The position numbers were made by a program, and so were the translations under genes. From Paraflavitalea devenefica (GTDB lineage Bacteria; Bacteroidota; Bacteroidia; Chitinophagales; Chitinophagaceae), in the NCBI RefSeq assembly GCF_011759375.1, contig NZ_JAARML010000005.1, forward strand, positions 620,001 through 684,000: a stretch of DNA of 64,000 nt, given 5' to 3'. Position 1 is the first letter of the stretch, and every line of letters starts with the position of its first letter. This document shows, piece by piece, positions 6,992-33,917 of the stretch. The notes below the pieces were generated by a model. The model was not told the origin of the DNA and ran no database searches. It was given only the letters and a program-made list of their open reading frames with translations.

Positions 6992-7004
6992 TATAATATT
7001 GGTT

Positions 7005-8591
7005 TTACTTAATAAATTGTTTAGTGATTACCTTATCCTTCTTCGTAAAAATCAACGTATACATACCCGGAGCCAGGGAGGATACATCTACTTTATAAGT
7101 AGCTGCCCGGGGGCTTAATACCTGCCTGCCGGTTATGTCTACTATACGGATAGTGCCGCCAGTCAGGTCCTCACCTGCCTGGATGTTCAACTGGTGCTGA
7201 ACCGGGTTGGGATACAATACCCATTTGTCTCCGGCGGGCGCATCATCACTAATCGTGCCGTCTGTTGTCTTACCTGCTGAGGTTAACAATCCTGTAGCAG
7301 GTGGTGTAATCCGCAGCCAGTTGAGGTTCCAGCCGCCGGCCTGTGCATATACGCCTACATTGTAGGTGCCTGCATTGATATACACGTTGTGCGTAATGGT
7401 GGTCCAGTTTTGCCAGCCGCCGGTAGAAGGAACAGCCAGGGCGCCCAACTGGATAGTACCGGCATTCAGGTCAAGCGATAAAGTGCCACCGCCATTGAGA
7501 CTGGCCACCCGGTATTCCACTTTATACGTACCGCTTACCGGGAAATTGATATTGTAGTAAGCCATCCAGTCGGTGGCATCTATCCAGCCTACATTTTGTC
7601 CGCCACCGGCATCAGTACAGGCTTCTGTTTGTATGCCCTGCATATTGCTATAATTCTCGGCCTGGATGGTAATGGGATTACCGCCCCCGCCACTCCTTTG
7701 CAATACTACTTCATGAATGGCCGACAACAGGGAGTTAGCTCCGGTAGCATCCTGCGAAAGCTCCCACATCATAATGCCATTGCCCTGGTCAAATGCGAGG
7801 TTGGTCTTGCTTTTAATGGTGGTAATACCATTATAGCCTACGCCGCTGAACACATCGGCATAGGGATTGGCGCCGCGGCCTACCAGCGTAGCAAAAGATT
7901 CCCAGGAAGGCCGGCCATAAAAAGGAACACCCAGCACTACTTTGGAAGCAGGCAATCCCCTGCCCTTCCAGTAATTGATGGATTGTGTGGCATAGCTATA
8001 CGTGGAATGGTCGAAATTATTAAAATCATACGCCATCAGGTTCAGGAAGTCCACCACATTGAACACACTGTTGAGAATGCTGGCACCATTAATACCCACC
8101 ACTGCCGCTGTGAGTAGCTTGCCCCGGTTATGCATCTCGGTAGACAGTTGCTGCATGAGCGTAGCATAATTGTTGGCAGAAGCGCCATTGTCTGGGTATT
8201 CCCAGTCAATGTCGATGCCATCCAGGTTATACTGGTTCACAAAATTGATCATGTTGTTCACAAAACTGTTGCGGTAGGTACTATTGGCGGCCAGGCTTTC
8301 AAAAGCGCCATCATCGCCATTATTCCAGCCTCCTACAGCAATGAGCACCTTTTTGCCATTGGCATGCGCCAGTGATACGAGGCTCTGTAATTTGGAGGGG
8401 TTTTCTATGGCCTGTAATCCACCCGTAGCTGTGGGCAACAGGAAAGCATAATTGATGTGGGTTAGCTTACTGTACTGAATACTGTTTACATTGCCTGCCC
8501 AGGAAGGCATGTAGCCTACTACTTTGAATTGGGGAAGGACAGACTTTGTTGCAATGATAAATAGGACAAGAAGAATGGATGTCTTTTTCAT
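7005..8591 (-). CDS. Secreted GH18 chitinase with CBM6 and T9SS sorting domain
   Basis: 528 residues. Signal peptide about 1-20. GH18 domain at about 22-295 with D124-G-I-D-I-D-W-E131 intact. A CBM6-type carbohydrate-binding module lies at about 305-430 (AENYSNMQGIQTE...VGWIDATDWMAYYNINFP). T9SS C-terminal domain at 455-528. It should release chito-oligosaccharides at the surface. The C-terminal domain is nearly identical to that of the next gene (2957-6991), and the CBM6 is nearly identical to that of the GH16 gene at 8719. No TAnnTTTG box is visible in the 127 bases upstream, so it may be read from the GH16 promoter through an imperfect hairpin. Confidence 0.93.
   Translation of the reverse strand: MKKTSILLVLFIIATKSVLPQFKVVGYMPSWAGNVNSIQYSKLTHINYAFLLPTATGGLQAIENPSKLQSLVSLAHANGKKVLIAVGGWNNGDDGAFESLAANSTYRNSFVNNMINFVNQYNLDGIDIDWEYPDNGASANNYATLMQQLSTEMHNRGKLLTAAVVGINGASILNSVFNVVDFLNLMAYDFNNFDHSTYSYATQSINYWKGRGLPASKVVLGVPFYGRPSWESFATLVGRGANPYADVFSGVGYNGITTIKSKTNLAFDQGNGIMMWELSQDATGANSLLSAIHEVVLQRSGGGGNPITIQAENYSNMQGIQTEACTDAGGGQNVGWIDATDWMAYYNINFPVSGTYKVEYRVASLNGGGTLSLDLNAGTIQLGALAVPSTGGWQNWTTITHNVYINAGTYNVGVYAQAGGWNLNWLRITPPATGLLTSAGKTTDGTISDDAPAGDKWVLYPNPVQHQLNIQAGEDLTGGTIRIVDITGRQVLSPRAATYKVDVSSLAPGMYTLIFTKKDKVITKQFIK
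7320..7660 (-). repeat. CBM6-coding segment, copy 1
   Basis: DNA encoding the CBM6 of the GH18 gene is closely similar to 9020-9370 in the GH16 gene, including long identical runs such as CCAGTTTTGCCAGCC. It indicates recent domain duplication or gene conversion between neighbours. Confidence 0.7.
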
Positions 8592-8630
8592 AGTTTATTT
8601 GTTTATTAGAGAATTCAGAATATAGAATTC

Positions 8631-8705
8631 AGAATCCAGTATTCAGAATCTTTTACTCAGCCAGAGAAATACAGGCACCTGTATTTCTTCTGGATCCTGG
8701 ATTCT
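8631..8705 (-). repeat. ATTCAG-rich palindromic intergenic element with perfect inner hairpin
   Basis: It has an outer 9-bp stem (8631-8639 with 8697-8705, AGAATCCAG/CTGGATTCT) and a perfect 11-bp inner hairpin (8665-8675 with 8678-8688, AGAAATACAGG/CCTGTATTTCT). The core and the neighbouring AGAGTAAAGAAT sequence are shared with 2863-2945. It lies just after the GH16 gene's stop and may terminate or attenuate transcription into the GH18 genes. Confidence 0.55.
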
Positions 8706-8718
8706 TTACTCTGTGTTT

Positions 8719-10167
8719 TTACTTAATAAATCGTTTTGTGATGGTCTTTCCTTCTTTGGTGAATAGCAACGTATACACCCCCGGTGCCAGCTTCGATACA
8801 TTGATGCGATTGGTGGCCTGTGTAGCGGTCAATACCTGCCGGCCCATGATATCGTATATGCGCAGCAGTCCGCCGGCGAGGTTTTCCCGGGTAGCAATCC
8901 GTAATTCATCTTTTACGGGGTTGGGGAATATCTCAAAGCCGGTTGCATCACCGGTAGCTTTCCGTTCATCTGTGCCGGTGGTGTTGGCAGCTATGCGTGC
9001 TGAACCCTGCCGGGTAATGCGTATCCAGTTCAGGTTCCATCCACCGGCCTGCGCAAACACGCCTACATTATAGGTGCCTGCATTTACATGCACAGTATGC
9101 GAAATGGTAGTCCAGTTTTGCCAGCCACCGGTAGAAGGCACATCCAGTGCTCCGAGTACCGTAGAACCTGCATTCAGGTCGAGTGATAACCTGCCGCCTC
9201 CGTTGAGGCTGGCCACGCGGTATTCCACCAGGTAACTGCCGGTAGTGGGGAAATTGATGCTGTTATAAGCCATCCAGTCGTTGGCATCTATCCAGCCTAC
9301 ATTTTGTCCGCCGCCCGCATCGGTCGTAGCTTCGGTTTGCACACCCAGCATGGCACTGTAATTCTCTGCCTGGATGAGTACGCTGGAAGGACCGCTGCTT
9401 TGCTGGTATACCCGTACATAATCAACATACATATTGGCAGGCATAGCGCCATTATTAACGGTAAAGCCGGGCCAGTTGCCGCCGATGGCCATGTTCAGGA
9501 TGATAAAGAAGTTGTTGTGGAATTCATGCGTGCCATTGATGCCGTTGGCAATATTGGCCTCATGAAACTGTACTCCGTCAATAAACCATTTGATGGAGGA
9601 TGCCGTCCATTCAATAGCATACACATGAAAACCCGTTACGTTCACCGCGGTATTGCCACCGTAATTGGCATACTGCGCATTGTGGTCGCGCCAGTGTATG
9701 GTGCCGTATGTCCTGTTCTCGGTGTTCACGTGCTCCATCACATCTATTTCACCACAGTCGGGCCAGCCGGCGGTGCCAATATTATCGCCCAGCATCCAGA
9801 AAGCGGGCCATACACCCTGGAAGGCAGGCATGGCAATACGGGCTTCCACCCTTCCGTATTTCCAGGATTTACGCCCCTGCGTTTTCATACGCGCTGAGGT
9901 GTAATTCATGCTGCCGAAGCTCTCATTGCGGGCAGTGATCACCAACTGACCATTTTGTACTGTAGCATTCTGGCTGCGGTAATACTGCAGTTCATTGTTG
10001 CCCCAGCCGCCCGATCCGGTACCGGTTTCAAATACCCAGTCGGGCCCAATGCCATTGTCAAACTCATCCTGCCACACAAGCTGCCAGCTTTGTGCTGCTG
10101 CAGGATACACCGTGAAGAAGAGGAAGGATAATAAAATGGTAATGCGTGCAAAATGTTTCATAAGCAT
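8719..10167 (-). CDS. Secreted GH16 beta-glucanase with CBM6 and T9SS sorting domain
   Basis: 482 residues; the second ATG (10158) gives MKHFARI and may be the true start. Signal peptide ends near AAAQ26. GH16 domain at about 27-260 with the catalytic E140-I-D142-V-M-E145 signature (CGEIDVMEHV), as in laminarinase/lichenase-type endo-beta-glucanases. CBM6 at about 272-395 and a T9SS C-terminal domain at 410-482 (NPVKDELRI...TKRFIK). The likely substrate is beta-1,3 or mixed-linkage glucan, which together with chitin would suit attack on fungal walls (inference). It is the first gene of the minus-strand block, so the region 10168-10519 should hold the block promoter. Confidence 0.93.
   Translation of the reverse strand: MLMKHFARITILLSFLFFTVYPAAAQSWQLVWQDEFDNGIGPDWVFETGTGSGGWGNNELQYYRSQNATVQNGQLVITARNESFGSMNYTSARMKTQGRKSWKYGRVEARIAMPAFQGVWPAFWMLGDNIGTAGWPDCGEIDVMEHVNTENRTYGTIHWRDHNAQYANYGGNTAVNVTGFHVYAIEWTASSIKWFIDGVQFHEANIANGINGTHEFHNNFFIILNMAIGGNWPGFTVNNGAMPANMYVDYVRVYQQSSGPSSVLIQAENYSAMLGVQTEATTDAGGGQNVGWIDANDWMAYNSINFPTTGSYLVEYRVASLNGGGRLSLDLNAGSTVLGALDVPSTGGWQNWTTISHTVHVNAGTYNVGVFAQAGGWNLNWIRITRQGSARIAANTTGTDERKATGDATGFEIFPNPVKDELRIATRENLAGGLLRIYDIMGRQVLTATQATNRINVSKLAPGVYTLLFTKEGKTITKRFIK
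9020..9370 (-). repeat. CBM6-coding segment, copy 2
   Basis: Partner of 7320-7660. The flanking GH16 and GH18 catalytic parts are unrelated, so only the binding module (and partly the sorting domain) is shared. Confidence 0.7.
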
Positions 10168-21288: not shown

Positions 21289-23166
21289 ATGAAAACTGCT
21301 GCGCGCTCCACGATCAGGATATCGTTCATATTACTCATAATGGCTGTCATTGGCTGTTTGCAACTCTCCTTCCGGAAAGCAGTTTCCCCTTCGGTTGGTA
21401 TCGTTGATGTTTACCTTACTTCTTTTGAAAAGGCTACGGCTGATTTTGAAGGTATGGCTCTTGCCTGGAAAGCGGGCCAGTCATCCCCTGATAGCCTAAA
21501 GGCCGGTTTATTGCGCACGAGACTTGCGTACAAAGAGGTGGAGTTCCTATTGGCTTATTATTTCCCGGAATACGTAAAAGAACATATCAACGGAGCACCC
21601 CTGCTGCATATAGAGCGCAACGACAGCCGCGCGATGGTTGTTACCCCGCAAGGCTTGCAGGTGCTGGATGAACTGGTATTTGGAGAGGAGTCCGAAAAGG
21701 AAAAAGGACAAATAGCGGCGCTTGCACAACAACTGAAAAAGCATAGCCAACACCTCATTGATGGTTTCCGGCAGCAGCCAATAAAAGTAACCGACTGGGC
21801 CAACGCGATTCGCCTGCAACTGGTGCGCCTGTTTACGCTCGGTGTTACCGGTTTTGATACGCCCGGTTCGCTGAATGCCCTACCGGAAGCCATTAGCTCG
21901 CTTGCTGCCATCAAAGCGATCACGGTGTCTCTTGCGCAAGAATATGGTGATACTGCTGCTTTTCAACCCTTGCTTTCCCAACTGGGTGAGGCTATCGCTT
22001 ACCTGCAACAACCCGTGGGCTTTGATGATTTTGACCGGCTCAGTTTCCTGCGCAACCATATCAATCCACTGTACAAGGCTTTCCTGTATTTTCCCACCGG
22101 CAGAAGACAGTCAGGCTCTTCAGGTACTGCTGCTACCGGCAATATTGCCTGGAACAATGCCAGCCATACTATTTTCTCCGATGAGTTTTTGAATCCATAT
22201 TATTTCACGGAGCTGACGGAAAAAGAAGACAGCAAAGCATTGCATGCATTGGGTGAAAGATTGTTTTATGATCCTATCCTCAGCAGCAACAATGCTATTA
22301 GTTGCGCTACCTGCCACCAGCCAGAGCTGGCCTTTACAGATGGCCGACCTAAATCTGCCAGCAGTATGCAGGAACGTACGGTACAGCGGAATGCACCTAC
22401 CCTGCTCAATGCGGTGTATGCAGACCGCTATTTTTATGACCTGCGGGCTTTCAGTCTTGAACAGCAGGCCGAGCACGTGATCTTTCACCAGATGGAATTT
22501 AATACGGCCTACAGTGATATTACCCGCAAACTCAGCAGGGATGCAGATTATACAGCACGCTTTAAACAATGCTTTGGCGACAGGGAGGTGACGCGCGAAC
22601 GTTTCACAAAAGCCCTGGCTTCCTATGTATTGTCCCTGCGCTCGTTCAATAGCCCGTTTGACCGGTATGCGCGCGGTGAATCCGATACGCTGAATGTGTT
22701 GGCACAGCAAGGCTTTAACCTGTTTATGGGAAAAGCCGCCTGCGGCACCTGCCACTTTGCACCCACCTTTGCCGGGCTGGTACCTCCGTTGTATACAGAA
22801 AATGAAAGCGAGATATTAGGATTGCCAGAGCAGCCGGGTATGAAGCTGGCCGACAGCGACAACGGCCGTTATGATAACGCGGTATTCAGCGAGAAGGCCT
22901 GGATCTATGAAAAGTCGTTCAAGACCTCAACGGTACGTAATGTGGCGCTGACGGCTCCTTATTTTCATCACGGCGCTTTCCCAACACTGGAGCAGGTAAT
23001 AGATTTCTACAACAATGGCGGCGGCACTGGTATGGGATTAGCGGTGAAGAACCAGACACTGGCAGCAGATTCCCTGCACCTGACAGACGGTGAGAAAAGG
23101 GCACTGATCGTATTTATGGAGTCGCTGACGGATGGAAAGACCGAAAGCCGGAAAGTACGGAAGTAA
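21289..23166 (+). CDS. Di-heme cytochrome c peroxidase (MauG/CcpA family) with extra helical N-terminal domain, copy 1
   Basis: 625 residues. N-terminal hydrophobic anchor about 10-27 (ISFILLIMAVIGCLQLSF), which may be a lipoprotein signal at C23. Residues 40-290 are helical and resemble the imelysin/EfeO-type fold (YKEVEFLLAYYFPEYVKEHINGAP). The peroxidase domain from about 300 has two heme c motifs, CATCH (339-343, in CATCHQPELAFTDG) and CGTCH (485-489). Family members reduce H2O2 with electrons from cytochrome c or small donors, or oxidise a protein or metabolite as MauG does. The next gene is a homologue, 6 bases downstream. The pair looks like an internal duplication. Confidence 0.9.
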   Translation: MKTAARSTIRISFILLIMAVIGCLQLSFRKAVSPSVGIVDVYLTSFEKATADFEGMALAWKAGQSSPDSLKAGLLRTRLAYKEVEFLLAYYFPEYVKEHINGAPLLHIERNDSRAMVVTPQGLQVLDELVFGEESEKEKGQIAALAQQLKKHSQHLIDGFRQQPIKVTDWANAIRLQLVRLFTLGVTGFDTPGSLNALPEAISSLAAIKAITVSLAQEYGDTAAFQPLLSQLGEAIAYLQQPVGFDDFDRLSFLRNHINPLYKAFLYFPTGRRQSGSSGTAATGNIAWNNASHTIFSDEFLNPYYFTELTEKEDSKALHALGERLFYDPILSSNNAISCATCHQPELAFTDGRPKSASSMQERTVQRNAPTLLNAVYADRYFYDLRAFSLEQQAEHVIFHQMEFNTAYSDITRKLSRDADYTARFKQCFGDREVTRERFTKALASYVLSLRSFNSPFDRYARGESDTLNVLAQQGFNLFMGKAACGTCHFAPTFAGLVPPLYTENESEILGLPEQPGMKLADSDNGRYDNAVFSEKAWIYEKSFKTSTVRNVALTAPYFHHGAFPTLEQVIDFYNNGGGTGMGLAVKNQTLAADSLHLTDGEKRALIVFMESLTDGKTESRKVRK

Positions 23167-23172
23167 GAAGTA

Positions 23173-25155
23173 ATGAAGCAAGCAATACAACCTATATACA
23201 GGAAAGGATGGATGGCAGCAGGCATGGTGCTGCTGGTCCTGTTGCTGCAATCTTCTTTTCGCAATACCAGTCCGGATGAAGCCACCCGCACCATCATCCT
23301 GCAACAGGCGGCCCGTTTTACAACGGCTGTTAAAGCATTGAATACGTTGGCCCATGCCCTGGCAGCCGGCAAATCCTCTCTTGCTGCATTCAAACAGCAA
23401 TTGCTGGCCACCCGCCAAGCCTGGAAAGGCATTGAATATATGGCAGAGTATTATTACCCTGAACATGTAAAAGAATACCTGAACGGCCCGCCATTGGATC
23501 ACCTGGACCCCTACCCATTTGATTCGTCTTCCTATTATGGTACGTCTGCTGCTGCTTACCTGGGCACAGCACCACTGGATTATCTCGAGCGGGACCATTT
23601 CCTGGGTAAGCCCGCCGTGATCGCCCCCCGTGGCTTGCAGGTATTGGATGAGGGTATATTTTCCGGTGAACTGACAAACCCCGGGCACATCGTACAACTC
23701 ACTGCCGAACTAGAAGAGAAGTGGCTTATCGCGGCACAGGCATTGAACAAAAGAAAATATTTCCTGCCGTTTGAAGTAATAGAAGCTGCCCGCCTGCAAC
23801 TGGTACGCATCTGCACACTGGGTATTACTGGTTTCGATACGCCCGGTTCGCTCAATATCATTGCAGAAACAAAAGCAGGCATCGCGGCCTTACAGCAGGT
23901 GATGCAGCCACTGTTGCAGCAAACCACAGATTCTCTGTCGAAAAAGGCTACCTTGTATTTTGAGCGCACGCAACATTTCCTGGCGCAACAAAATGATTTT
24001 GATACGTTCGACCGGCTGGCTTTTCTTACCAACTGTTTGAATCCCCTTTACAAAGTATTGCTGGACATTCACCGGCAGCAGCAACTCACCATTTCCTCAA
24101 CACTATCGGGTAAAACGCCTTCCTGGAATGCGTATAGCGATAATATTTTTGCGTCTGACTTTCTGGACCCTTATTACTACAGTTTGCTGCAAAGGGATAA
24201 AGACAATGAGGCGCTGCGTGCATTGGGTAAGCAATTGTTTTATGATACAAGGCTCAGCAACAACGGGCAGTTGAGCTGTGGCAGTTGCCACAAACCGGAG
24301 CTTTCGTTTACGGATGGGGTTCCCAAATCGTATGCCGCTACAGCAGGCCGTACGGTATTGCGCAATGCGCCTTCACTCATCAACGCCGTATTTGCCGACC
24401 GTTATTTTTATGACCTGCGTTCTTTTGACCTGGAAGACCAGGCCGGACAGGTGATCAGGAACCATGAGGAGTTTGATACTGATTTTCCCGAGCTGCTGAA
24501 GAAGCTACAGGCCGACAGCAGCTATGTAACTGCTTTTGCACGCGCCGCAGGAAGCACCACTGCCCTCCCTGCTCTTACCCGCTACCGCATTTCATCGGCA
24601 CTGGCCTCTTATATTATCTCCCTGCGTTCCTTCAACAGTCCTTTTGATCAATATGTGCGGGGAGAAAGAAAGACCTTGCCACTCAAGGTAAAGCAGGGCT
24701 TTAACCTGTTTATGGGTAAGGCCAACTGTGGTACCTGCCACTACCCGCCCCTGTTCAGCGGACTGGTGCCGCCACTTTACCGTGAAAGCGAGAGTGAGGT
24801 ACTGGGTGTGCTGGAGAAACCCGGCATGCGCAAGGTGGATGAAGATAAGGGAAGAGCTGGCAACCAGGTGCCGAATGAGCATGCTTCCATTTACCGGCAT
24901 GCCTTCAAAACAATGAGTGTGCGCAATACAGCACTTACTGCACCCTATTTTCACAACGGCGCGTACCGTACATTAAAGGAAGTGATTGAGTTCTACAACA
25001 ATGGTGGTGCACAGGGCATTGGTTTGTCACAGGCGCTGCCCAACCAAACACTGGCGGCCGATTCTTTGCACCTGTCCCTGGCCGAACAGGATGCACTCCT
25101 TTCTTTTCTCCAATCACTTACAGATTCTGTGGCCATCAAACGATTTGCCCGGTAG
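23173..25155 (+). CDS. Di-heme cytochrome c peroxidase (MauG/CcpA family), copy 2
   Basis: 660 residues. Signal/anchor about 14-29 (AAGMVLLVLLLQSSF). The domain order is the same as copy 1: helical N-terminal region about 40-320 (WKGIEYMAEYYYPEHVKEYLNGPP, clearly homologous to the same segment in copy 1) and peroxidase domain with CGSCH (369-373, CGSCHKPELSFTDG) and CGTCH (519-523). It has an extra insertion near residues 115-135 (YPFDSSSYYGTSAAAY) that copy 1 lacks. The ATG at 23173 is 6 bases after the preceding stop, so both are on one mRNA. A heterodimer is possible. The large phosphatase fusion begins 146 bases downstream on the same strand. Confidence 0.9.
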   Translation: MKQAIQPIYRKGWMAAGMVLLVLLLQSSFRNTSPDEATRTIILQQAARFTTAVKALNTLAHALAAGKSSLAAFKQQLLATRQAWKGIEYMAEYYYPEHVKEYLNGPPLDHLDPYPFDSSSYYGTSAAAYLGTAPLDYLERDHFLGKPAVIAPRGLQVLDEGIFSGELTNPGHIVQLTAELEEKWLIAAQALNKRKYFLPFEVIEAARLQLVRICTLGITGFDTPGSLNIIAETKAGIAALQQVMQPLLQQTTDSLSKKATLYFERTQHFLAQQNDFDTFDRLAFLTNCLNPLYKVLLDIHRQQQLTISSTLSGKTPSWNAYSDNIFASDFLDPYYYSLLQRDKDNEALRALGKQLFYDTRLSNNGQLSCGSCHKPELSFTDGVPKSYAATAGRTVLRNAPSLINAVFADRYFYDLRSFDLEDQAGQVIRNHEEFDTDFPELLKKLQADSSYVTAFARAAGSTTALPALTRYRISSALASYIISLRSFNSPFDQYVRGERKTLPLKVKQGFNLFMGKANCGTCHYPPLFSGLVPPLYRESESEVLGVLEKPGMRKVDEDKGRAGNQVPNEHASIYRHAFKTMSVRNTALTAPYFHNGAYRTLKEVIEFYNNGGAQGIGLSQALPNQTLAADSLHLSLAEQDALLSFLQSLTDSVAIKRFAR

Positions 25156-25301: not shown

Positions 25302-28300
25302 ATGTCGAAAAAGCAACTATGGATACTGATGCTTGGCTTTGTGGGATGGATGACGACGGGAACAGCACAGACTATTCCAGGAGATTCTATTGTTTTCGGG
25401 CCTATGTTCAGCCCGGTGTACCACGACTCGGTAAGGGTATGGGTGGTGACCAAACAGAACACTGGATCTGGGGATGTATTTTCGCTTGAACTAACAGCGG
25501 GCAATGCACCCGGCACTCCTTTAACCGGTACAGTACACAATTCCGATGACAGGCTCGGTTACCAGTTAAGATCATGGGTATATCCTGCTCTTATCGCGGG
25601 ACAAGCCTACACTGCGGTGATCAAAAAGAACGGTGTTGCTACGCACCGCAAGGCTGTTATTAAGAACGAAAGCAGTCTGCTGGATGATTTTTCTTTTCTT
25701 ACTGGTGGTTGCGGACGTATTTATGATACGACCCGCTGTATAGACAGGCCCGAATCGCAAACCCATAAGAACGGTGATCCTGCTATGTTCAACCGCATGG
25801 CGGCAGAGAATAGTGACCTGATGATCTGGCTGGGCGACGCTACTTACCTGCTGGGGTTACAGCATGCCATGGGGCAATGTCCCAATGGTATAGACGACTG
25901 GGCCAATAAGGACATGGCTTTTGCGCGTTATATGTTCTACCGCAACTTTCACGATTCGCTCACCAGGGCGATGCCTCAACTGGCCATTCCCGATAACCAC
26001 GACCTCGGTCCGAACGAGTTCAACAAAACATTGCCTACCATTGGGCAAATGAGGGAGATCTTTATGGACTGGTGGCCCAATCCTGCCTACAAGAGCACCA
26101 GTGAAGGACAGGGTTTGTATTCTTCTTATCAATACAAGGATGTTGAATATTTTTTATTGGACAACCGCAGCTACCGCGACGGTACTACCCAACACCTGGG
26201 ACCTGAGCAGTTCGAATGGCTGAAACAGGGTTTAAAGCAATCAAAAGCTACTTTTAAGATACTGATCAATGGTACGCCTTCTTTTGCTAAACATTGGGGC
26301 GGCCGTAATTTTTCCATTACATCACAGGGGGATGAACTGGTAAAATGGATCAAAGATCAGAACATTGACGGAGTGCTTTGCTTCAGCGCTGATATTCATG
26401 AGCAGGAACTCTATGGCCGCTATGCGGATGTAAAGTATCCTTTGTTTGACATGCTGAGCGGCAACCTCAATTCTGATGTAGGAAATGGCCAGTTTACCGT
26501 TGATTATGCCAGTGACCGCATCCTGCGCGGTGTAAAACAAACTTACCTGAAGGTGACGGTATACGGCGAAGCCGGCAACAGGAAAATGAGGGTGGCTTAC
26601 ACCGGTCCGGACGGTCTTCCCTATTTTCAGTCTGTTATCCACTCGGATATGCTGAAGAGCATTGACGACAGCGTGAAAAAGCTGTCGCTGGGCTTCAGCG
26701 GTTCCCTGCTGGATTCTTCGGCATTCCAACACCAGTTGACTGCTACTGGTCTGGGTTATGGCAGCAATAAAGACGGAGTAGCGCAATCGGCCGGCCTGTT
26801 CAGTGCAGCTACCAACCTGCAATGGGCTTACACGCCTGCTTTTGATCTGCAGGACCGTCCATTTACGCTGGGCTTCTGGATCAATCCTTCCCAATTTCCA
26901 GCCACCGGTGCGGCCGTGTTTTCCAATGCCACTGCCGGCGCTGGTATTACCATTGGTTTCGACAAGGATGGTTATTTACAATACATCGATCACAAGACAA
27001 ATACGACCTATACTTCTACCCGCAATCTCGTGCTCAACAAATGGGCACAGGTGAGTTGGAAGTACGACAATGTAAGGCGTCAGTTGTCTGTATTCTACAA
27101 TGGCTGGCTGGTGCAAGCCTGGACCGGTGTAGTTTCTCCTTCCGCAGCTACCGGCGCGCTGCACATCGGCAACAATTTTGAGAACAAACATTTTATTGGT
27201 TTGCTGGATGAAGTGAAACTTTACGGCAAGCTGGTATCAGATCAACGTATACTGGACAACGCCGGTTATACTTCCCATCGTGGTGACGTGATCAAACTGA
27301 ACGCTTCCAATATGGCTATACCCGGTGCGGCTGTCAATACAGCCATGGTCGGTGATTTCACCATTGAGTTCTGGGGCAAGGTCAATACAGATCCCGGTGC
27401 TAATATCAAACTGCTGGCCAGCAATGGTCGCGTGAACAACAATACTACAGGCATCTCTTTTGAATTCCCCGACAACAACAAGCTCAATGTGGTGTTGGGC
27501 ACCAATACCAGTAGCTGGAGTTCCCTTACCGATAAAGGCAATGCCTGGAATGTAGGTGAGTGGAACCATATAGCTGTTACCGCTACCAAAAACGGTACGC
27601 TTACGTATTATGTAAATGGCGAGAAGGTGGCTGATATGCCTTTCACCGCTTATGTACCCAACAACTGGGGCATTGGCCTGGGCAATAGTCCTGCCTATGC
27701 CGGTACATTGGCGGCTGAACTGGATGAACTGCGTATCTGGAGCAAAGCCTTGCCTGCAGATAGCATCCGCAGGCATATGCACCATCCGCTTACCGGTAAG
27801 GAAGATGGCCTGGCATTGAACTACGATTTTAAGGCTTATACCGATACTTCTATCATGAGCACTGGCACCCAGCCCGTGGAGATAAAACTCAGCGGTGCTG
27901 AAATTGTATCTGCTACCTCTCCCGTGGCAGTGATCGATTCCCTGTACCAGCAGGCGATAGCAGCCAACTGGAGCATCAGCAACAAAGCTATCGGCGGCCT
28001 GAGCTATACAGAAAAGATAACCGGTTATATCAGCAATATTGTTACCGGTAAGAATCCCGATTCCACACTGGCAGTAACAAAGAACAATATCCATTATCTG
28101 AAAGGCGGCTGGCAGATCGATGCGCTGAATGTGCCTGCTGCTACTATTAAGGTTATACTTGCACAGGCATTGCCCAAAGCAGATTCGATTGTGAAAGCGG
28201 CTACCCGCTGGTACCTGCTGGAAGAACTGACCACGGATTCACTGGTGATCGTAAGCCAGGGTAATTTTGATGGACAGAACCTCACGTTCATCAACACCTA

Positions 28301-31300
28301 CCTGGAGCCTGGCTATTACCACCTTGGGTGGCTGGCCGATCCTACCGGCGCTATTGGCCGTGGGGGAGCGCTTTCACTCACCGGTGGCCACAAGGTGCAT
28401 GTACCCGACAGCAAGGTGGATGCCGTGCTCTCCGGTAAGTTCACGATCGAATATTGGGCCAAGCTGACAGAAGACCCAGTTACCAGCGCCAAGATGATGG
28501 CCAGTAACGGAAGGATCAACAACAATACCGTTGGATTTGCTTTTGAATTCAACGCCAGCAATGCGCTGAATGCAGTATTCGGCACCAATACCGGCAACTG
28601 GAACAGCATTGCTTCTAATGTGGTATGGAAAGTGGGCGAATGGAACCATATCGCAGTAACCGGAGCGCCCAATGATTCGCTGAAGATGTATGTGAATGGT
28701 ACGCTGGCCGGTAAGAATGCGTTTACTGCCTATGCTCCCGGCGGTGCCTGGGATCTCGCACTGGGCAACAGCACCAACTACACCGGCAATGAGATGAAGG
28801 CTACAATGGATGAGTTCCGCATCTGGAAGAAGGTGAAAACACAACAGGAGATTGTCGAGGGCATGCACCTAAGCACTGCCACCGATACGGCGCTGGTATT
28901 TAATTATACATTTAACCAGGACAATATTGGCTATGCCATCAATACCGGTACCGGTAACGACAGCATATCCATGACCAATGCGCAGATCATTGCTTCCACA
29001 GCTCCTGTAGCTGATATGGATACGGCTTACCGTACTATGGTGACTGCCAACTGGAGCCTGCGGAATGAAACCGCCAATGGCCTTTACCTGAAAGATGCCA
29101 TCACGGGTTTTAACACCAACCTGGTGGTAGGTAAAGATTTCGATAAAACAATTGTGAAACTGGGCGCTGCCAAAGATACTTTCTATGTGAAAGGCGGCTG
29201 GTGGTTAAATGCGCTGGATATGAAGACGGGTACGCTGGTAGCTGACCTGGCGAAGATATTGACCAACGCAGACAGCGTGGCCAAATTTGCCAGCCGTTAC
29301 TACCTCATCAAAGGTGATCCTGCTGCTACGTATACCATTGTGGCTTCCGCTCCTGCGGTCAATAAGATCGTGGAGTTTGCCAATGTATCCCTCGATTTCG
29401 GCAAATACTTCCTGGGTTATAAGTCTTCTGCGGCTGCCCCTGTTACGGCTGTGTTCAAAATAACAGCCGGTACAGACGATGCCGAGCAGAACCTCGACAT
29501 CAACAGCGGGGCGATGGACCTCACCAGTTCCGACCTGGAGTTTACCAAAGACGGTACGAAAGACCAGTTCCTCGGTGTGCGTTTCAGCCATGTAACCATT
29601 CCGCAGGGCGCTATTGTCAACAATGCCTACATACAGTTTACGGTAGATGAAGTAAATACCACCGGTGATGTGAACGTGATGATCGGTGTGGAGAATACCG
29701 ACAACCCGCTCACGATGACTACCGGCGCTTTTGATATTTATCACCGCCTGATCCATTATGGCGATACCCTTATCTGGAAACCCGGACAATTTGCTGCCGA
29801 AGGTGATTCCGGTATCAACCAGCGCACGACCGATCTGTCGAAGCTGGTACAGCATATAGTGAACAGGCCTTCGTGGGCGTCCGGCAACCCGATGCTGTTT
29901 GCGATGGTTGATCCCGCCTACCTGAAAGTGCCTGGCTATACCGGTAATACCGACAAGCGCGTGGCCCAGTCTTTTGACCGCAACCCTGCCACCGCTGCGA
30001 GGCTGGTGGTCAACTATACAGTTCCCAACAGGTTCCAGACCGGTACTTTCCCCCTTGCAATGAAGGCCTCCTGGAAGTACAATGATACGGCCGACCTGAG
30101 CGGACGCAACTGGACAGCGGTCGATTACAACGACAGCACCTGGGCGTTTGGCAATGGTATACTGGGCTATGGTGAAGGCAATGAAAGTACTACGCTGCAA
30201 TACGGCAATGATGCCAACAACAAGCGTCCGACTTACTATTTCCGTCATACGTTCAAGGTAGACGACCGCACCAAATACGATTCACTGGTGTTTGATGTAT
30301 TGAGAGACGACGGAGCCATTGTATATGTGAACGGTACAGAAGCCTTCCGCATGAACATGCCGGATGGTACAGTGAATTACAATACCTATGCTACTGCAAC
30401 CGTGAATGCACCGGATGAAACGGCGTATTTCCGCACAAAGACAGCCAACCTGCTGCAAAACGGCATCAATGTAATCGCTGTAGAACTGCACCAGGCTACT
30501 GCCAACAGCTCCGACCTGAGCTTCGATATGCAAGTAGGTTATACCCTGCCTCCGCTGGCGCCTGCCTCCTACCCGCTCACCAAAGGAAGTGAATGGTCTT
30601 ACCTCGACAACGGCACCAGCCTCGATGCCGCCGCCTGGAAAGACTCAGCCTATGCAGACCGTCACTGGGCTACCGGTAAGGGACCGCTTGGTTATGGTGA
30701 TGCCATGACTACTACTGTATCTTACGGTCCTGATGCTACCAACAAATACATCACTACTTATTTCAGGCGCGGTATCGTGATCGATACAGCCCATGTAGCT
30801 GATTCTGTAGAGATCGGTATCCGCCGTGATGATGGCGTGATCCTTTACATCAACGGTAATGAAGTAGTGCGTGACAATATGCCGGCAGGGGCAGTGAATT
30901 ATCGCACGAAGTCTTCTTCTATCGTGGATGGCGCTGCCGAAACTACTTATTTTACTTTCCTGTTGCCGAAGACCATCTTCCGCAATGGCCATAACCAACT
31001 GGCTGCCGAGGTACACAACCGCGACAGTTCCAGCTCCGATCTTGGTTTCGATCTATATATTAAGGACGCTCCTGTTAAAAATCCACCTTTTGTATGTGCC
31101 GATAACCACATCGCGTGCTTTACTTCCATTGATCCTACAGCGCAAACCAATAAGCTCATCATTCCTGCCGGCTCACACCGCTTCCAACTGATCTTCAAGG
31201 AAGGGGAAGTCTATACGAAAGGCAGTGGTACGGTACCGGGCAATCATGACTTTACGGGTTATGTGCCCCTGAATGGCAGCAGCACCAAAGGTCACCTCTC

Positions 31301-32930
31301 TGTAAATCATGAGAACCAGCCCGGTGGTGTGTCTATGATCGACCTGCATTACAATGATACCACCATGTTGTGGGTGGTGGATACCACGCAGGCAGTGGAT
31401 TTCTACAACAATGATCTCATTACTACCACCCGTAACTGTTCCGGCGGTATTACGCCGTGGGGTACAGTAATTACCAGCGAAGAATCTGTCAACGCCGGTG
31501 ATGTGAACAAGGATGGTTATGAAGATGTGGGCTGGCAGGTAGAGATCGATCCGCTTACCGCCAAAGTGCTTGATTACAACGGAGACGGCAAACAGGATAA
31601 GCTGTGGGCAATGGGACGTATGAACCATGAGAATATTGTGGTGCTGGCCGACCGGAAAACCGCTTATTATGGAGAAGACGGCGGTACCCATTGCGTGTAC
31701 AAGTTTGTAGCCGATAAAGCCGGTGATCTTTCTGCCGGTAAAGTATATGTACTGAAACTGGACCAGCCGCTGGTAAATGATGATCCAAGCGGTACCACTG
31801 CCCAGTGGATACTGGTGCCCAATGCCACACAGAGCGATCGCAACAACCTCAACTCCATTGCTGCTTCCCTCGGCGGCACCAATTTCAACGGTGTGGAAGA
31901 TTGTGAAATAAGTCCCATAGACGGTAAGATCTATTTCACGTCAAAAGGCAAGAACCGTGTATACCGCTTTACCGATAAGGGAACATCGGTGGATAATTTT
32001 GAAACCTTTGTAGGCGGCACTTCCTATACCATCAATACCGCCAGTGGCGCCAAAACAGAGCCCTGGGGTGATGGCAATGATAACCTGACATTTGACAACA
32101 AAGGCAACCTGTGGGTATTGCAGGATGGCGGTTTGTACTATATCTGGGTTATCCGCCCCGATCATACGCAAAGTAGTCCCAAAGTAGAACTGTTTGCCTC
32201 CTTCCCTGCCGGTTCTGAACCTACGGGATTGACCTTCTCGCCCGATCATCGTTTCGGATTTGTATCCGTACAGCACCCGAGTGGCAGCAATGCCGACCAG
32301 GTAGATGCCAGCGGCAAAACGATCCGGTTTAATAAATCGGCTACCCTTGTATTCTCGCTGAACGAACACCTTGGTATGCAGATACCAGTGGCTGGTTTTA
32401 CAGCCGACACAACGGTGGCGGTAGTAGGCAAGCCTGTAAAGTTTACCGACACCAGCAAAAACTATCCCACCAGCAGGGCCTGGAAGTTTGACGGCGGTAG
32501 CCCTGCTACTTCTACCAACACTACTGAAACGGTGACCTATCATACACCGGGCAAGTACAAGGTAGAGTTGATCGTGAGCAATGCAGCGGGCGCAGATACA
32601 GCTATTGCGGTTGATTATATCGAAGTGAAGAATGCTGTTACAGGGATCAATGACCCGGATGACCTGGCGAAGAGCCTGACTGTATCTCCCAATCCTACCA
32701 ATGGAAGGATTATGGTAACGTTCAGGGTACCAGCCGGCGAACAGGTGTCGATGGAGTTGTTCGACCTTTCCGGTAAACGGCTGGGTACACTGGCTACGGT
32801 AAAGGCTACCGGCCTTACGCAGCAGGTGCCGCTCAACCTGGAACCGTTGGTGAAAACAAATCAGGTGGTGGTATTACTGGTTAGAACTGCCACGATGACT
32901 AACCGCAAGTTGCTGCTGTATACGAAGTAA
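25302..32930 (+). CDS. Giant T9SS-secreted protein with PhoD-like and PhoX-like phosphatase domains joined by LamG modules
   Basis: 2542 residues, signal peptide about 1-23. Modules in order: PhoD-like metallophosphatase about 125-440, with metal-site motifs WLGD (D179), PDNHD (D231/H233) and SADIHE (D364/H366). LamG-like domains follow at about 462-655, 661-826 and 1017-1188, with two homologous linker domains (852-1016, 1189-1379). A DNRLRE-like domain is at 1380-1570, and two related beta-sandwich repeats at 1577-1748 and 1749-1929. A PhoX/DUF839 domain spans about 1931-2360, with GHLSVNHE (E2004), PWGTVITSEES and a GRMNHEN-YYGEDG region that match PhoX signatures. A PKD domain is at 2362-2445 and the T9SS sorting domain at 2452-2542. 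PhoD and PhoX are both Ca/Fe-dependent extracellular phosphatases in other bacteria. It should be a surface phosphatase that binds glycans. Fusion of both classes is very unusual to my knowledge. Confidence 0.85.
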   Translation: MSKKQLWILMLGFVGWMTTGTAQTIPGDSIVFGPMFSPVYHDSVRVWVVTKQNTGSGDVFSLELTAGNAPGTPLTGTVHNSDDRLGYQLRSWVYPALIAGQAYTAVIKKNGVATHRKAVIKNESSLLDDFSFLTGGCGRIYDTTRCIDRPESQTHKNGDPAMFNRMAAENSDLMIWLGDATYLLGLQHAMGQCPNGIDDWANKDMAFARYMFYRNFHDSLTRAMPQLAIPDNHDLGPNEFNKTLPTIGQMREIFMDWWPNPAYKSTSEGQGLYSSYQYKDVEYFLLDNRSYRDGTTQHLGPEQFEWLKQGLKQSKATFKILINGTPSFAKHWGGRNFSITSQGDELVKWIKDQNIDGVLCFSADIHEQELYGRYADVKYPLFDMLSGNLNSDVGNGQFTVDYASDRILRGVKQTYLKVTVYGEAGNRKMRVAYTGPDGLPYFQSVIHSDMLKSIDDSVKKLSLGFSGSLLDSSAFQHQLTATGLGYGSNKDGVAQSAGLFSAATNLQWAYTPAFDLQDRPFTLGFWINPSQFPATGAAVFSNATAGAGITIGFDKDGYLQYIDHKTNTTYTSTRNLVLNKWAQVSWKYDNVRRQLSVFYNGWLVQAWTGVVSPSAATGALHIGNNFENKHFIGLLDEVKLYGKLVSDQRILDNAGYTSHRGDVIKLNASNMAIPGAAVNTAMVGDFTIEFWGKVNTDPGANIKLLASNGRVNNNTTGISFEFPDNNKLNVVLGTNTSSWSSLTDKGNAWNVGEWNHIAVTATKNGTLTYYVNGEKVADMPFTAYVPNNWGIGLGNSPAYAGTLAAELDELRIWSKALPADSIRRHMHHPLTGKEDGLALNYDFKAYTDTSIMSTGTQPVEIKLSGAEIVSATSPVAVIDSLYQQAIAANWSISNKAIGGLSYTEKITGYISNIVTGKNPDSTLAVTKNNIHYLKGGWQIDALNVPAATIKVILAQALPKADSIVKAATRWYLLEELTTDSLVIVSQGNFDGQNLTFINTYLEPGYYHLGWLADPTGAIGRGGALSLTGGHKVHVPDSKVDAVLSGKFTIEYWAKLTEDPVTSAKMMASNGRINNNTVGFAFEFNASNALNAVFGTNTGNWNSIASNVVWKVGEWNHIAVTGAPNDSLKMYVNGTLAGKNAFTAYAPGGAWDLALGNSTNYTGNEMKATMDEFRIWKKVKTQQEIVEGMHLSTATDTALVFNYTFNQDNIGYAINTGTGNDSISMTNAQIIASTAPVADMDTAYRTMVTANWSLRNETANGLYLKDAITGFNTNLVVGKDFDKTIVKLGAAKDTFYVKGGWWLNALDMKTGTLVADLAKILTNADSVAKFASRYYLIKGDPAATYTIVASAPAVNKIVEFANVSLDFGKYFLGYKSSAAAPVTAVFKITAGTDDAEQNLDINSGAMDLTSSDLEFTKDGTKDQFLGVRFSHVTIPQGAIVNNAYIQFTVDEVNTTGDVNVMIGVENTDNPLTMTTGAFDIYHRLIHYGDTLIWKPGQFAAEGDSGINQRTTDLSKLVQHIVNRPSWASGNPMLFAMVDPAYLKVPGYTGNTDKRVAQSFDRNPATAARLVVNYTVPNRFQTGTFPLAMKASWKYNDTADLSGRNWTAVDYNDSTWAFGNGILGYGEGNESTTLQYGNDANNKRPTYYFRHTFKVDDRTKYDSLVFDVLRDDGAIVYVNGTEAFRMNMPDGTVNYNTYATATVNAPDETAYFRTKTANLLQNGINVIAVELHQATANSSDLSFDMQVGYTLPPLAPASYPLTKGSEWSYLDNGTSLDAAAWKDSAYADRHWATGKGPLGYGDAMTTTVSYGPDATNKYITTYFRRGIVIDTAHVADSVEIGIRRDDGVILYINGNEVVRDNMPAGAVNYRTKSSSIVDGAAETTYFTFLLPKTIFRNGHNQLAAEVHNRDSSSSDLGFDLYIKDAPVKNPPFVCADNHIACFTSIDPTAQTNKLIIPAGSHRFQLIFKEGEVYTKGSGTVPGNHDFTGYVPLNGSSTKGHLSVNHENQPGGVSMIDLHYNDTTMLWVVDTTQAVDFYNNDLITTTRNCSGGITPWGTVITSEESVNAGDVNKDGYEDVGWQVEIDPLTAKVLDYNGDGKQDKLWAMGRMNHENIVVLADRKTAYYGEDGGTHCVYKFVADKAGDLSAGKVYVLKLDQPLVNDDPSGTTAQWILVPNATQSDRNNLNSIAASLGGTNFNGVEDCEISPIDGKIYFTSKGKNRVYRFTDKGTSVDNFETFVGGTSYTINTASGAKTEPWGDGNDNLTFDNKGNLWVLQDGGLYYIWVIRPDHTQSSPKVELFASFPAGSEPTGLTFSPDHRFGFVSVQHPSGSNADQVDASGKTIRFNKSATLVFSLNEHLGMQIPVAGFTADTTVAVVGKPVKFTDTSKNYPTSRAWKFDGGSPATSTNTTETVTYHTPGKYKVELIVSNAAGADTAIAVDYIEVKNAVTGINDPDDLAKSLTVSPNPTNGRIMVTFRVPAGEQVSMELFDLSGKRLGTLATVKATGLTQQVPLNLEPLVKTNQVVVLLVRTATMTNRKLLLYTK

Positions 32931-33005: not shown

Positions 33006-33917
33006 ATGAAGTTCGTTTTACCTGTCATATTGATGTGTACGGGTATGGTTGCCACCGCGCAGCACGCCAATCCCAAGAAGGCAGCGGTCTATTATACCCT
33101 GACCGATGCGCTGAAGGACAGGGAGGCCACGCAGCTCAACCTGCGCGACAAGCAACTGTTTACCCTCAATGACAGCATTGAAAGGCTGGAGCATCTTCGT
33201 TTCCTGAACCTGATGGGTAATAACCTGGAAGCATGGGATGAAAGCCTGTTTCGCTTGCGTAAACTGGAAGACCTTATTCTGCGGCAAAACAAGCTGCGGG
33301 AACTGCCTGAACAGGTAAGCCTGTTGCACCACCTGGTACAACTGGATATTACCGGCAATACGATTGCCCGGATACCGAAGGGAATAGGCCGGCTCAGTAA
33401 GTTACGCTTTCTGCATGCCGCCATGAATGTGATCAGTTCCCTCGATGCATCTATTGGCGATTGCAGGAGCCTGGAGGTGCTGGCATTCCAGTTCAACCAA
33501 CTGAGTTACTTGCCTGCTTCGATCGTACACCTGAAAAAGCTACGCGTACTGAACCTAGGTTACAACCAATTCAATGAGTTTGATCCTGCCTGGCTGGAAC
33601 TGGAAAACCTGCAGGAATTGAACGTCGAATACAATTTCTTCCGGCGGTTGCCTGATGCGGTGGAAAGATTGGGCAACCTGCGCACGCTGATACTTACGCA
33701 CAACCGGCTGGATTCCCTCCCCGAAACACTGACCAGCCTGCAACACCTGGAACTGCTGGTGGTTTCGGAAAACAACCTGACGAAACTGCCTGCGCATATA
33801 GACAGGCTTCAGCACCTGAAAACCCTGATCGCGCTGAATAATCCTTTGAGTAAGGAAGAGAAAGAAAGGATCAGGAAGGCCCTTCCGGGTTGCCAGGTAT
33901 ATGTTGATAAGGATTAA
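33006..33917 (+). CDS. Secreted leucine-rich-repeat protein
   Basis: 303 residues. Signal peptide 1-18 (MCTGMVATAQ). From about residue 60 there are ten consecutive repeats of exactly 23 residues with the consensus LxxLxxLxLxxNxLxxLPxxIxx, the typical/bacterial LRR pattern (for example LRKLEDLILRQNKLRELPEQ). The last repeat is capped by KEEKERIRKALPGCQVYVDKD. LRR solenoids bind proteins; no enzyme domain is attached and no T9SS domain is present, so a periplasmic scaffold or adhesin is likely (inference). The gene starts 75 bases after the phosphatase fusion and could be co-expressed with it. It converges with the serine hydrolase gene. Confidence 0.9.
   Translation: MKFVLPVILMCTGMVATAQHANPKKAAVYYTLTDALKDREATQLNLRDKQLFTLNDSIERLEHLRFLNLMGNNLEAWDESLFRLRKLEDLILRQNKLRELPEQVSLLHHLVQLDITGNTIARIPKGIGRLSKLRFLHAAMNVISSLDASIGDCRSLEVLAFQFNQLSYLPASIVHLKKLRVLNLGYNQFNEFDPAWLELENLQELNVEYNFFRRLPDAVERLGNLRTLILTHNRLDSLPETLTSLQHLELLVVSENNLTKLPAHIDRLQHLKTLIALNNPLSKEEKERIRKALPGCQVYVDKD

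Follow-up and report, generated by a model that had tools for sequence, protein, structure and literature searches.

A predicted PhoD-LamG-PhoX phosphatase fusion encoded beside MauG-type di-haem genes in Paraflavitalea devenefica and other Bacteroidota

PhoD and PhoX count among the three principal families of alkaline phosphatases in bacteria; for both, the use of ferric iron and calcium and export from the cytoplasm via Tat have been reported. MauG is a di-haem enzyme forming the protein-derived cofactor in methylamine dehydrogenase. According to the accessible text of PMC4223295, proteins of the PhoX family use Tat, and its authors speculate that PhoD and PhoX do so to have their iron loaded in the cytoplasm. 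In Flavobacterium johnsoniae, the MauG-like Fjoh_2477 and the PhoX-like Fjoh_2478 are strongly induced by phosphate depletion, as stated in the available sections of PMC8115612. The portions of PMC8812569 at hand describe that deletion of phoX in F. johnsoniae lowers the inducible phosphomonoesterase activity and that Flavobacterium PhoX shows no detectable activity in P. putida, for which its authors offer two possible reasons, weak expression or a requirement for MauG. In the same partly available literature, Fjoh_2478 is described as keeping nine of the ten active-site residues.

Here we analysed a stretch of 64,000 nucleotides from Paraflavitalea devenefica, in the following termed the window, in which positions 25302-32930 form one uninterrupted ORF of 2542 residues with internal stops being absent; this ORF and all other window features given with coordinates below lie on the plus strand. 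A first-pass annotation made from the sequence had placed a PhoD-like and a PhoX-like phosphatase on this single polypeptide, with LamG-like domains in between, duplicated beta-sandwiches, and PKD and T9SS domains following PhoX. The profiles for PhoD (PF09423), PhoX (PF05787) and LamG all match the 2542-residue protein, both phosphatase matches exceeding their cut-offs within the one ORF and Laminin_G_3 covering three stretches (208.6 bits, Pfam), which supports a predicted exported chain carrying two phosphatases of unrelated families; its classification as a PhoD-LamG-PhoX fusion protein draws on the single ORF, on Pfam and on six fused homologues. The chain starts with a putative Sec-type signal peptide in which a twin arginine is absent (residues 1-23, 25302-25370, sequence judged by eye), followed by the PhoD-type metallophosphatase core (Pfam span 154-368, 25761-26405; Pfam, alignments and profile match), a LamG-like domain 0 (residues ~470-655, 26709-27266) and the LamG-type modules 1 (residues ~660-1015, 27279-28346) and 2 (residues ~1016-1385, 28347-29456), these three being defined by Pfam and repeat comparison with bounds set by eye. 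The number of LamG modules differs among the fused homologues. A conserved block at residues ~1386-1580 (29457-30041), found by sequence comparison and having no model match, which we take to be DNRLRE-like, is present in five of the six fused homologues and absent from that of Flavobacterium akiainvivens.

The beta-sandwich duplication holds and can be described more precisely as two related repeats of ~170 residues preceding PhoX, i.e. sandwich repeat 1 (residues 1583-1755, 30048-30566) and sandwich repeat 2 (residues 1756-1925, 30567-31076), both identified by repeat comparison, in addition to the repeated LamG-type module. The PhoX-like beta-propeller phosphatase (residues ~1930-2360, 31089-32381; Pfam and structure model) is followed by a PKD domain (PKD_4, residues 2362-2442, 32385-32627) confirmed by Pfam and by a probable T9SS C-terminal sorting domain (residues 2461-2542, 32682-32927), the evidence for the latter being weak in the window protein with a sub-threshold Por_Secre_tail match (15.5 bits vs a cut-off of 27 in Pfam, span 2462-2511; 17.5 vs 23 in NCBIfam). 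In the F. akiainvivens homologue this tail scores above the threshold (33.9 bits, cut-off 27), and in the other five fused homologues it reaches 17.0-25.5 bits, below the cut-off of 27. Weak Pfam matches to a neurotoxin receptor-binding model overlap the LamG regions of loci L056, L065, L071 and L178, which we read as probably reflecting a shared concanavalin-A-like fold and nothing beyond.

For the PhoX part, PF05787 matches with 126.8 bits (cut-off 24), the best stretch being residues 2037-2326 and the match covering profile positions 155-514 of 515; this ORF is the one PhoX model match in the 8.7-Mb genome of the window. Structure prediction, proposed in the first-pass annotation as a check, supports the PhoX part: the model of residues 1899-2351 has a pLDDT of 87.4 and superposes with P. 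fluorescens PhoX (4a9v) at a Z-score of 30.7 over 384 residues with an rmsd of 2.8, the best chain from another protein reaching a Z-score of 24.4. The model of the PhoD part, built with seven similar sequences only, is poor (pLDDT 47.6). The residues C2046, E2110 and E2199 align with C179, E273 and E387 of 3zwu, which we take to be Fe ligands, and are invariant in all 56 PhoX rows, comprising 30 sequences with a long MauG gene nearby and 26 without. At the position of R385, presumably a substrate contact, the alignment places Gly2197 in the window protein; Arg is found here in 8/30 MauG-linked vs 22/26 unlinked rows, and Gly, as in the window protein, in 17 of the 30 linked rows. The TSEES sequence, previously read as part of a PhoX signature, is not upheld as a metal site, as the aligned candidate ligand cysteine is C2046 within RNCSGG and the TSEES site is a serine. 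P. fluorescens PhoX has two cysteines in the aligned stretch, their counterparts here being C2046 and a serine (S2059, TSEES). The cysteine of the TCEE sequence, corresponding to S2059 of the window protein, is kept in 20/26 PhoX without MauG vs 4/30 with MauG, counts that ignore kinship.

For the PhoD part, PF09423 scores 41.1 bits (cut-off 27) across residues 154-368. The residues D179, D231/H233 and D364/H366, named beforehand as PhoD motifs, are all present and the alignment adds C137 and Y182. Ten active-site residues are listed for PhoD in the accessible text of PMC5768637, eight of which are found by alignment (C137, D179, Y182, D231, H233, N238, D364 and H366), C137 falling just outside the Pfam span; a listed Asn is replaced by Pro at position 237, where the alignment is unsure and where stand-alone relatives are without Asn, too. 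Searching the PDB with the PhoD region of the window protein alone yielded no match with an E-value of 1 or below. With a PhoD profile of 21 sequences, 2yeq is matched at E 4e-24, purple acid phosphatases following with E-values between 4.5e-5 and 1.5e-3. Among the listed matches, the seven fused proteins are the only ones exceeding 60% PhoD identity, all others having at most 37%. A close PhoD gene elsewhere in the genome was not found in the 12 unfused genomes searched (L057, L059-L063, L066-L069, L072 and L073), which returned two distant matches of 30% and 25% identity.

Scanning genome contigs with the PhoX part yielded 26 loci, six of them having PhoD and LamG in the same frame as PhoX. 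These fused homologues, all from Bacteroidota and with PhoD, LamG and PhoX each above the Pfam cut-offs, are encoded by Dawidia soli (2940 aa, this and the following lengths being stop-to-stop), an Owenweeksia MAG (3275 aa), Niastella populi (2197 aa), Flavobacterium akiainvivens (L065; 2722 aa), Cesiribacter sp. SM1 (L070; 2521 aa) and Parachryseolinea silvisoli (2945 aa). The first-pass annotation had suggested a search for the fusion in other Chitinophagaceae; N. populi is the one host of the six labelled as such, and the fusion is not a Chitinophagaceae trait. It is rare: among 195 genomes of the family, the window's included, PhoX is matched in 23 and PhoD in 34, only the frame of the window holding both, and among 395 genomes of the phylum, the window's included, PhoX matches occur in 52 and PhoD matches in at least 112, with no second fused frame of comparable length among the listed matches. 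Across both genome sets the longest other listed frame with a PhoX-like or PhoD-like match has 1149 aa, in agreement with the earlier statement that the two phosphatases are normally separate proteins. Neither PhoX nor PhoD matches were found in two other genomes of the window's genus. A full-text search of the literature with limited wordings, judged by title and abstract, found no paper on a PhoD-PhoX fusion.

A single clade of all fused PhoX parts was rejected in a tree of 37 PhoX rows (AU test, p 0.0004). According to its starred branches, the fused state must have changed three times or more, the unfused L057 being sister to the fused Cesiribacter protein and F. akiainvivens PhoX grouping with unfused Flavobacterium PhoX. 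Residues 1944-2720 of the F. akiainvivens protein match one unfused protein at 67% identity and residues 1939-2720 another at 64%, the N-terminal part and the MauG gene being of the fused-group kind. This fused ORF shows PhoD, LamG and sandwich repeat 1 of the fused type together with sandwich repeat 2 and PhoX of the Flavobacterium type, the two unfused Flavobacterium proteins compared having their closest likeness in sandwich repeat 2, and it is an apparent chimera. Recombination and repeated loss both fit as possible routes to the scattered fused state. The Cesiribacter homologue also bears CBM_3 (cellulose-binding) domains, a hint of possible attachment to polysaccharides. At 2957-10167, the window further encodes GH18 (two) and GH16 proteins that are secreted and combine carbohydrate-binding domains with T9SS tails.

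We judge the flanking MauG and LRR genes to be the most informative part of the locus. Upstream of the fusion lie mauG1 (21289-23166), encoding a long-form MauG/MbnH-type di-haem protein of 625 aa with CxxCH at 339 and 485 (CCP_MauG 161 bits, Pfam), and mauG2 (23173-25155), encoding a second long-form MauG-type protein of 660 aa with CxxCH at 369 and 519 (CCP_MauG 144 bits, Pfam), the two being 46% identical with 6 bp in between. Gaps of 146 bp between mauG2 and the fusion and of 75 bp between the fusion and the LRR gene (33006-33917; 303 aa, signal peptide by eye; Pfam LRR_8 and adjacency counts) were found, and the four genes probably form an operon. The NCBIfam models for MauG (TIGR03791; 159.5-170.1 bits vs a cut-off of 443.85) and MbnH (TIGR04039; 178-189.7 bits vs 362.85) are not reached by mauG1 and mauG2; by sequence, the products are CCP_MauG domain proteins being kin to the MauG/MbnH enzymes by domain only.

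A long MauG gene is present in the flank of 17 and an LRR gene in that of 15 of the 26 loci, the nine loci without a flanking MauG gene being L073 and the eight most distant relatives. Among 18 further near-clade loci, drawn from the PhoX searches of the family and phylum genomes, 13 have both MauG and LRR genes (one with MauG some 5 kb off) and five have neither. The genes occur in two orders, i.e. MauG-PhoX-LRR or PhoX-LRR-MauG, and the LRR protein, secreted as judged by eye, accompanies the MauG-PhoX unit as a conserved third component. The word 'Leucine' is absent from the main text of PMC8115612, which apparently does not report the LRR partner. Five of the seven fused loci have two MauG genes, Owenweeksia and F. 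akiainvivens having one within the flank; the latter two also have a separate unfused PhoX near mauG1-type and LRR genes. In a tree of 36 MauG sequences, the mauG2 clade contains one sequence from each of the seven fused loci (support 99/97), and the mauG1 genes group with the MauG genes from loci in which PhoX is unfused (89/83). We had to reject mauG2 being exclusive to fusions, as mauG2-type genes, assigned by score, are also found away from fusions in five Flavobacterium genomes and one further genome of the phylum.

Extending the analysis to the phylum, mauG2 matches at E up to 1e-60 were found in 59 of the 395 genomes, and we fetched 20 such MauG loci for which no PhoX match, or a weak one only, was listed nearby. 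In 14 of the 20, a custom profile detects a PhoX-like ORF adjacent to the MauG gene (cut by the contig end in one case), and two have a purple-acid-phosphatase-type ORF (L226, L234); in three no phosphatase was present among the neighbours tested, and one more was not readable. A PhoX profile rebuilt without L187 finds exactly those 14 ORFs and L184-L187, at E 3e-23 to 2e-11. Pfam recognises PhoX in one of six short PhoX-like neighbours scanned (L221), as well as in L187 and not in L184, the remaining PhoX-like calls in short neighbours resting on the custom profile. The ORFs at L234:4896-6491 (+) and L226:1845-5198 (-) encode proteins with Metallophos and Pur_ac_phosph_N domains. Each directly adjoins a long MauG gene, both genomes belonging to the family of the window, and L234 has three consecutive metallophosphatase-type genes.

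The export signals differ between both groups of PhoX: a twin-arginine-type signal, called by pattern or eye and including one RK variant, occurs in 0/30 MauG-linked vs 19/26 unlinked sequences. The Fisher p-value of 1.5e-9 for this split ignores kinship; using three independent pairs, Tat differs in about one and the sign test is not significant. Seven unlinked PhoX are of the Sec-type with no adjacent long MauG gene, and a search for long-form MauG in their genomes gave no match in 7/7, showing that MauG is not required for every Sec-exported PhoX.

The fusion and its conservation are observed here, as are the PhoX fold predicted by modelling and the neighbouring genes, and we consider the double-phosphatase reading a reasonable hypothesis. 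We propose a model according to which the fusion would be a cell-surface phosphate-scavenging enzyme combining a PhoD/purple-acid-phosphatase-like phosphoesterase with a Bacteroidota-type PhoX phosphomonoesterase. The chain would be Sec-exported and probably T9SS-anchored with the LamG modules as spacers; ferric iron and calcium would presumably support catalysis at both sites, and phosphate would control the operon, as it does for the F. johnsoniae counterpart. Once exported, the phosphatase would be a target of the di-haem proteins, which would oxidise either its iron or one of its residues, given that the Sec/T9SS route, unlike Tat, does not allow an enzyme to be delivered already folded and loaded with iron. 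Most simply, the fusion would co-secrete and co-localise two activities at the surface, substrate channelling not being implied. Glycan binding by the LamG modules, teichoic or nucleic polymers as substrates and a coupling of diester with monoester hydrolysis, as put forward in the first-pass annotation, would be speculative additions. Taking PhoD and PhoX on one chain, surface phosphate scavenging, phosphate regulation of the operon and maturation by di-haem proteins after export together, we regard the arguments for and against this model as evenly balanced. The gene neighbourhood and export route furthermore suggest that long MauG-type proteins might be a system devoted to maturing ferric phosphatases outside the cytoplasm after their Sec export, serving two unrelated folds, that of PhoX and that of PhoD/purple acid phosphatase, and replacing the Tat-dependent cytoplasmic iron loading, with the fused protein and its two MauG genes being the most elaborate client. 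We put this generalisation forward tentatively, our doubts outweighing our confidence.

Several alternatives have to be weighed against this model. The joining of two genes by an assembly or frameshift error has a negligible probability; the fusion recurs as a single frame in six further genomes, which rules out such an artefact, and no support for one was found. The PhoD-type domain could be a modified or low-activity scaffold with the PhoX half alone working and the fusion serving as a display device. The alignments indicate that the domain has a lineage-specific Asp-to-Asn change in the PhoD DDH motif, which reads DNH (N232), with Asn in 7/7 fused proteins vs Asp in 29/29 aligned stand-alone relatives; this would fit such a scaffold, as would the PhoD Pfam scores of only 29-45 bits across the seven fused proteins and a fused state found in just six of the 26 loci. 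However, the other ligand-type residues are invariant in 7/7, and the PhoD identity to the window protein of 66-77% among the fused homologues is higher than that of the LamG modules, for which the best match per homologue is 39-62%, both pointing to a retained function. An Asn at the D(D)H position is moreover seen in profile alignments in two purple acid phosphatases, and we consider a mere scaffold unlikely. It would likewise be improbable, in our judgement, that the partner of mauG2 is the LamG-module region and not the catalytic region of PhoD: one Flavobacterium mauG2-type gene adjoins a 505-aa LamG and T9SS protein without PhoD, but this is a single readable case with the neighbourhoods of all six mauG2-type genes outside fusions being read in part only, so that a further partner is possible, and two other long MauG genes adjoin purple-acid-phosphatase-type proteins.

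The di-haem proteins might also modify a residue, e.g. a Trp, Tyr or Met near the metal, to yield a protein-derived cofactor instead of oxidising or loading iron, as is suggested for Flavobacterium PhoX in the available text of PMC8812569. M2107 and Y1971 are each kept in 30/32 near-clade MauG-linked PhoX and in 0/6 unlinked sisters, a contrast of one clade with its sister that may be due to descent alone. Over the 30 linked rows including distant clades, however, the counts are 19 for M2107 and 21 for Y1971, which leaves no one residue as a common target, and the invariant tryptophans W2078 and W2169 are also found in 6/6 unlinked sisters, with W2053 in 4/6. We see residue modification as possible, yet on the doubtful side.

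We judge the fusion to be a variant of known enzymes and a maturation of phosphatases outside the cytoplasm to be the more consequential idea. Bacteroidota export many PhoD and PhoX versions without a Tat signal, and in this operon both are on one chain. The link to MauG opens the iron supply of Tat-less phosphatases to a direct test in a laboratory strain. If extracytoplasmic maturation by MauG-type proteins holds true, the PhoX of Bacteroidota associated with plants and soil may depend on a partner gene, and expressing PhoX alone can miss its activity.

Compared to P. fluorescens PhoX (PDB 3zwu, 4a9v, 4alf, 4amf), the window protein has the beta-propeller fold and the equivalents of C179/E273/E387 in common and differs by Gly replacing R385 and Ser replacing the second Cys (TCEE); compared to the PhoX family, its Pfam match begins only at profile position 155/515. 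With B. subtilis PhoD (PDB 2yeq; PMC4223295, as far as its text is accessible) it shares, by alignment, eight of ten active-site residues, whereas it has DNH for DDH, a Sec-type rather than a Tat signal and is part of a fusion, the PhoD part sharing 27-30% identity with 14 stand-alone relatives, even though the latter come from genomes of the same family. The mauG1 and mauG2 products have the CCP_MauG domain and two CxxCH motifs in common with the MauG/MbnH di-haem enzymes and differ by ~300 residues N-terminal of the di-haem domain without a Pfam match. With Fjoh_2477/Fjoh_2478 of F. johnsoniae, the locus shares the combination of a Bacteroidota PhoX-type phosphatase and a MauG-type di-haem gene; the F. 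johnsoniae pair is phosphate-starvation induced, Fjoh_2478 is a predicted lipoprotein, and the accessible parts of PMC8115612 and PMC8812569 mention no PhoD, LamG or second MauG gene. The MauG-PhoX pair is already published for Flavobacterium, to which our analysis adds the linkage across the Bacteroidota and the two purple-acid-phosphatase-type loci.
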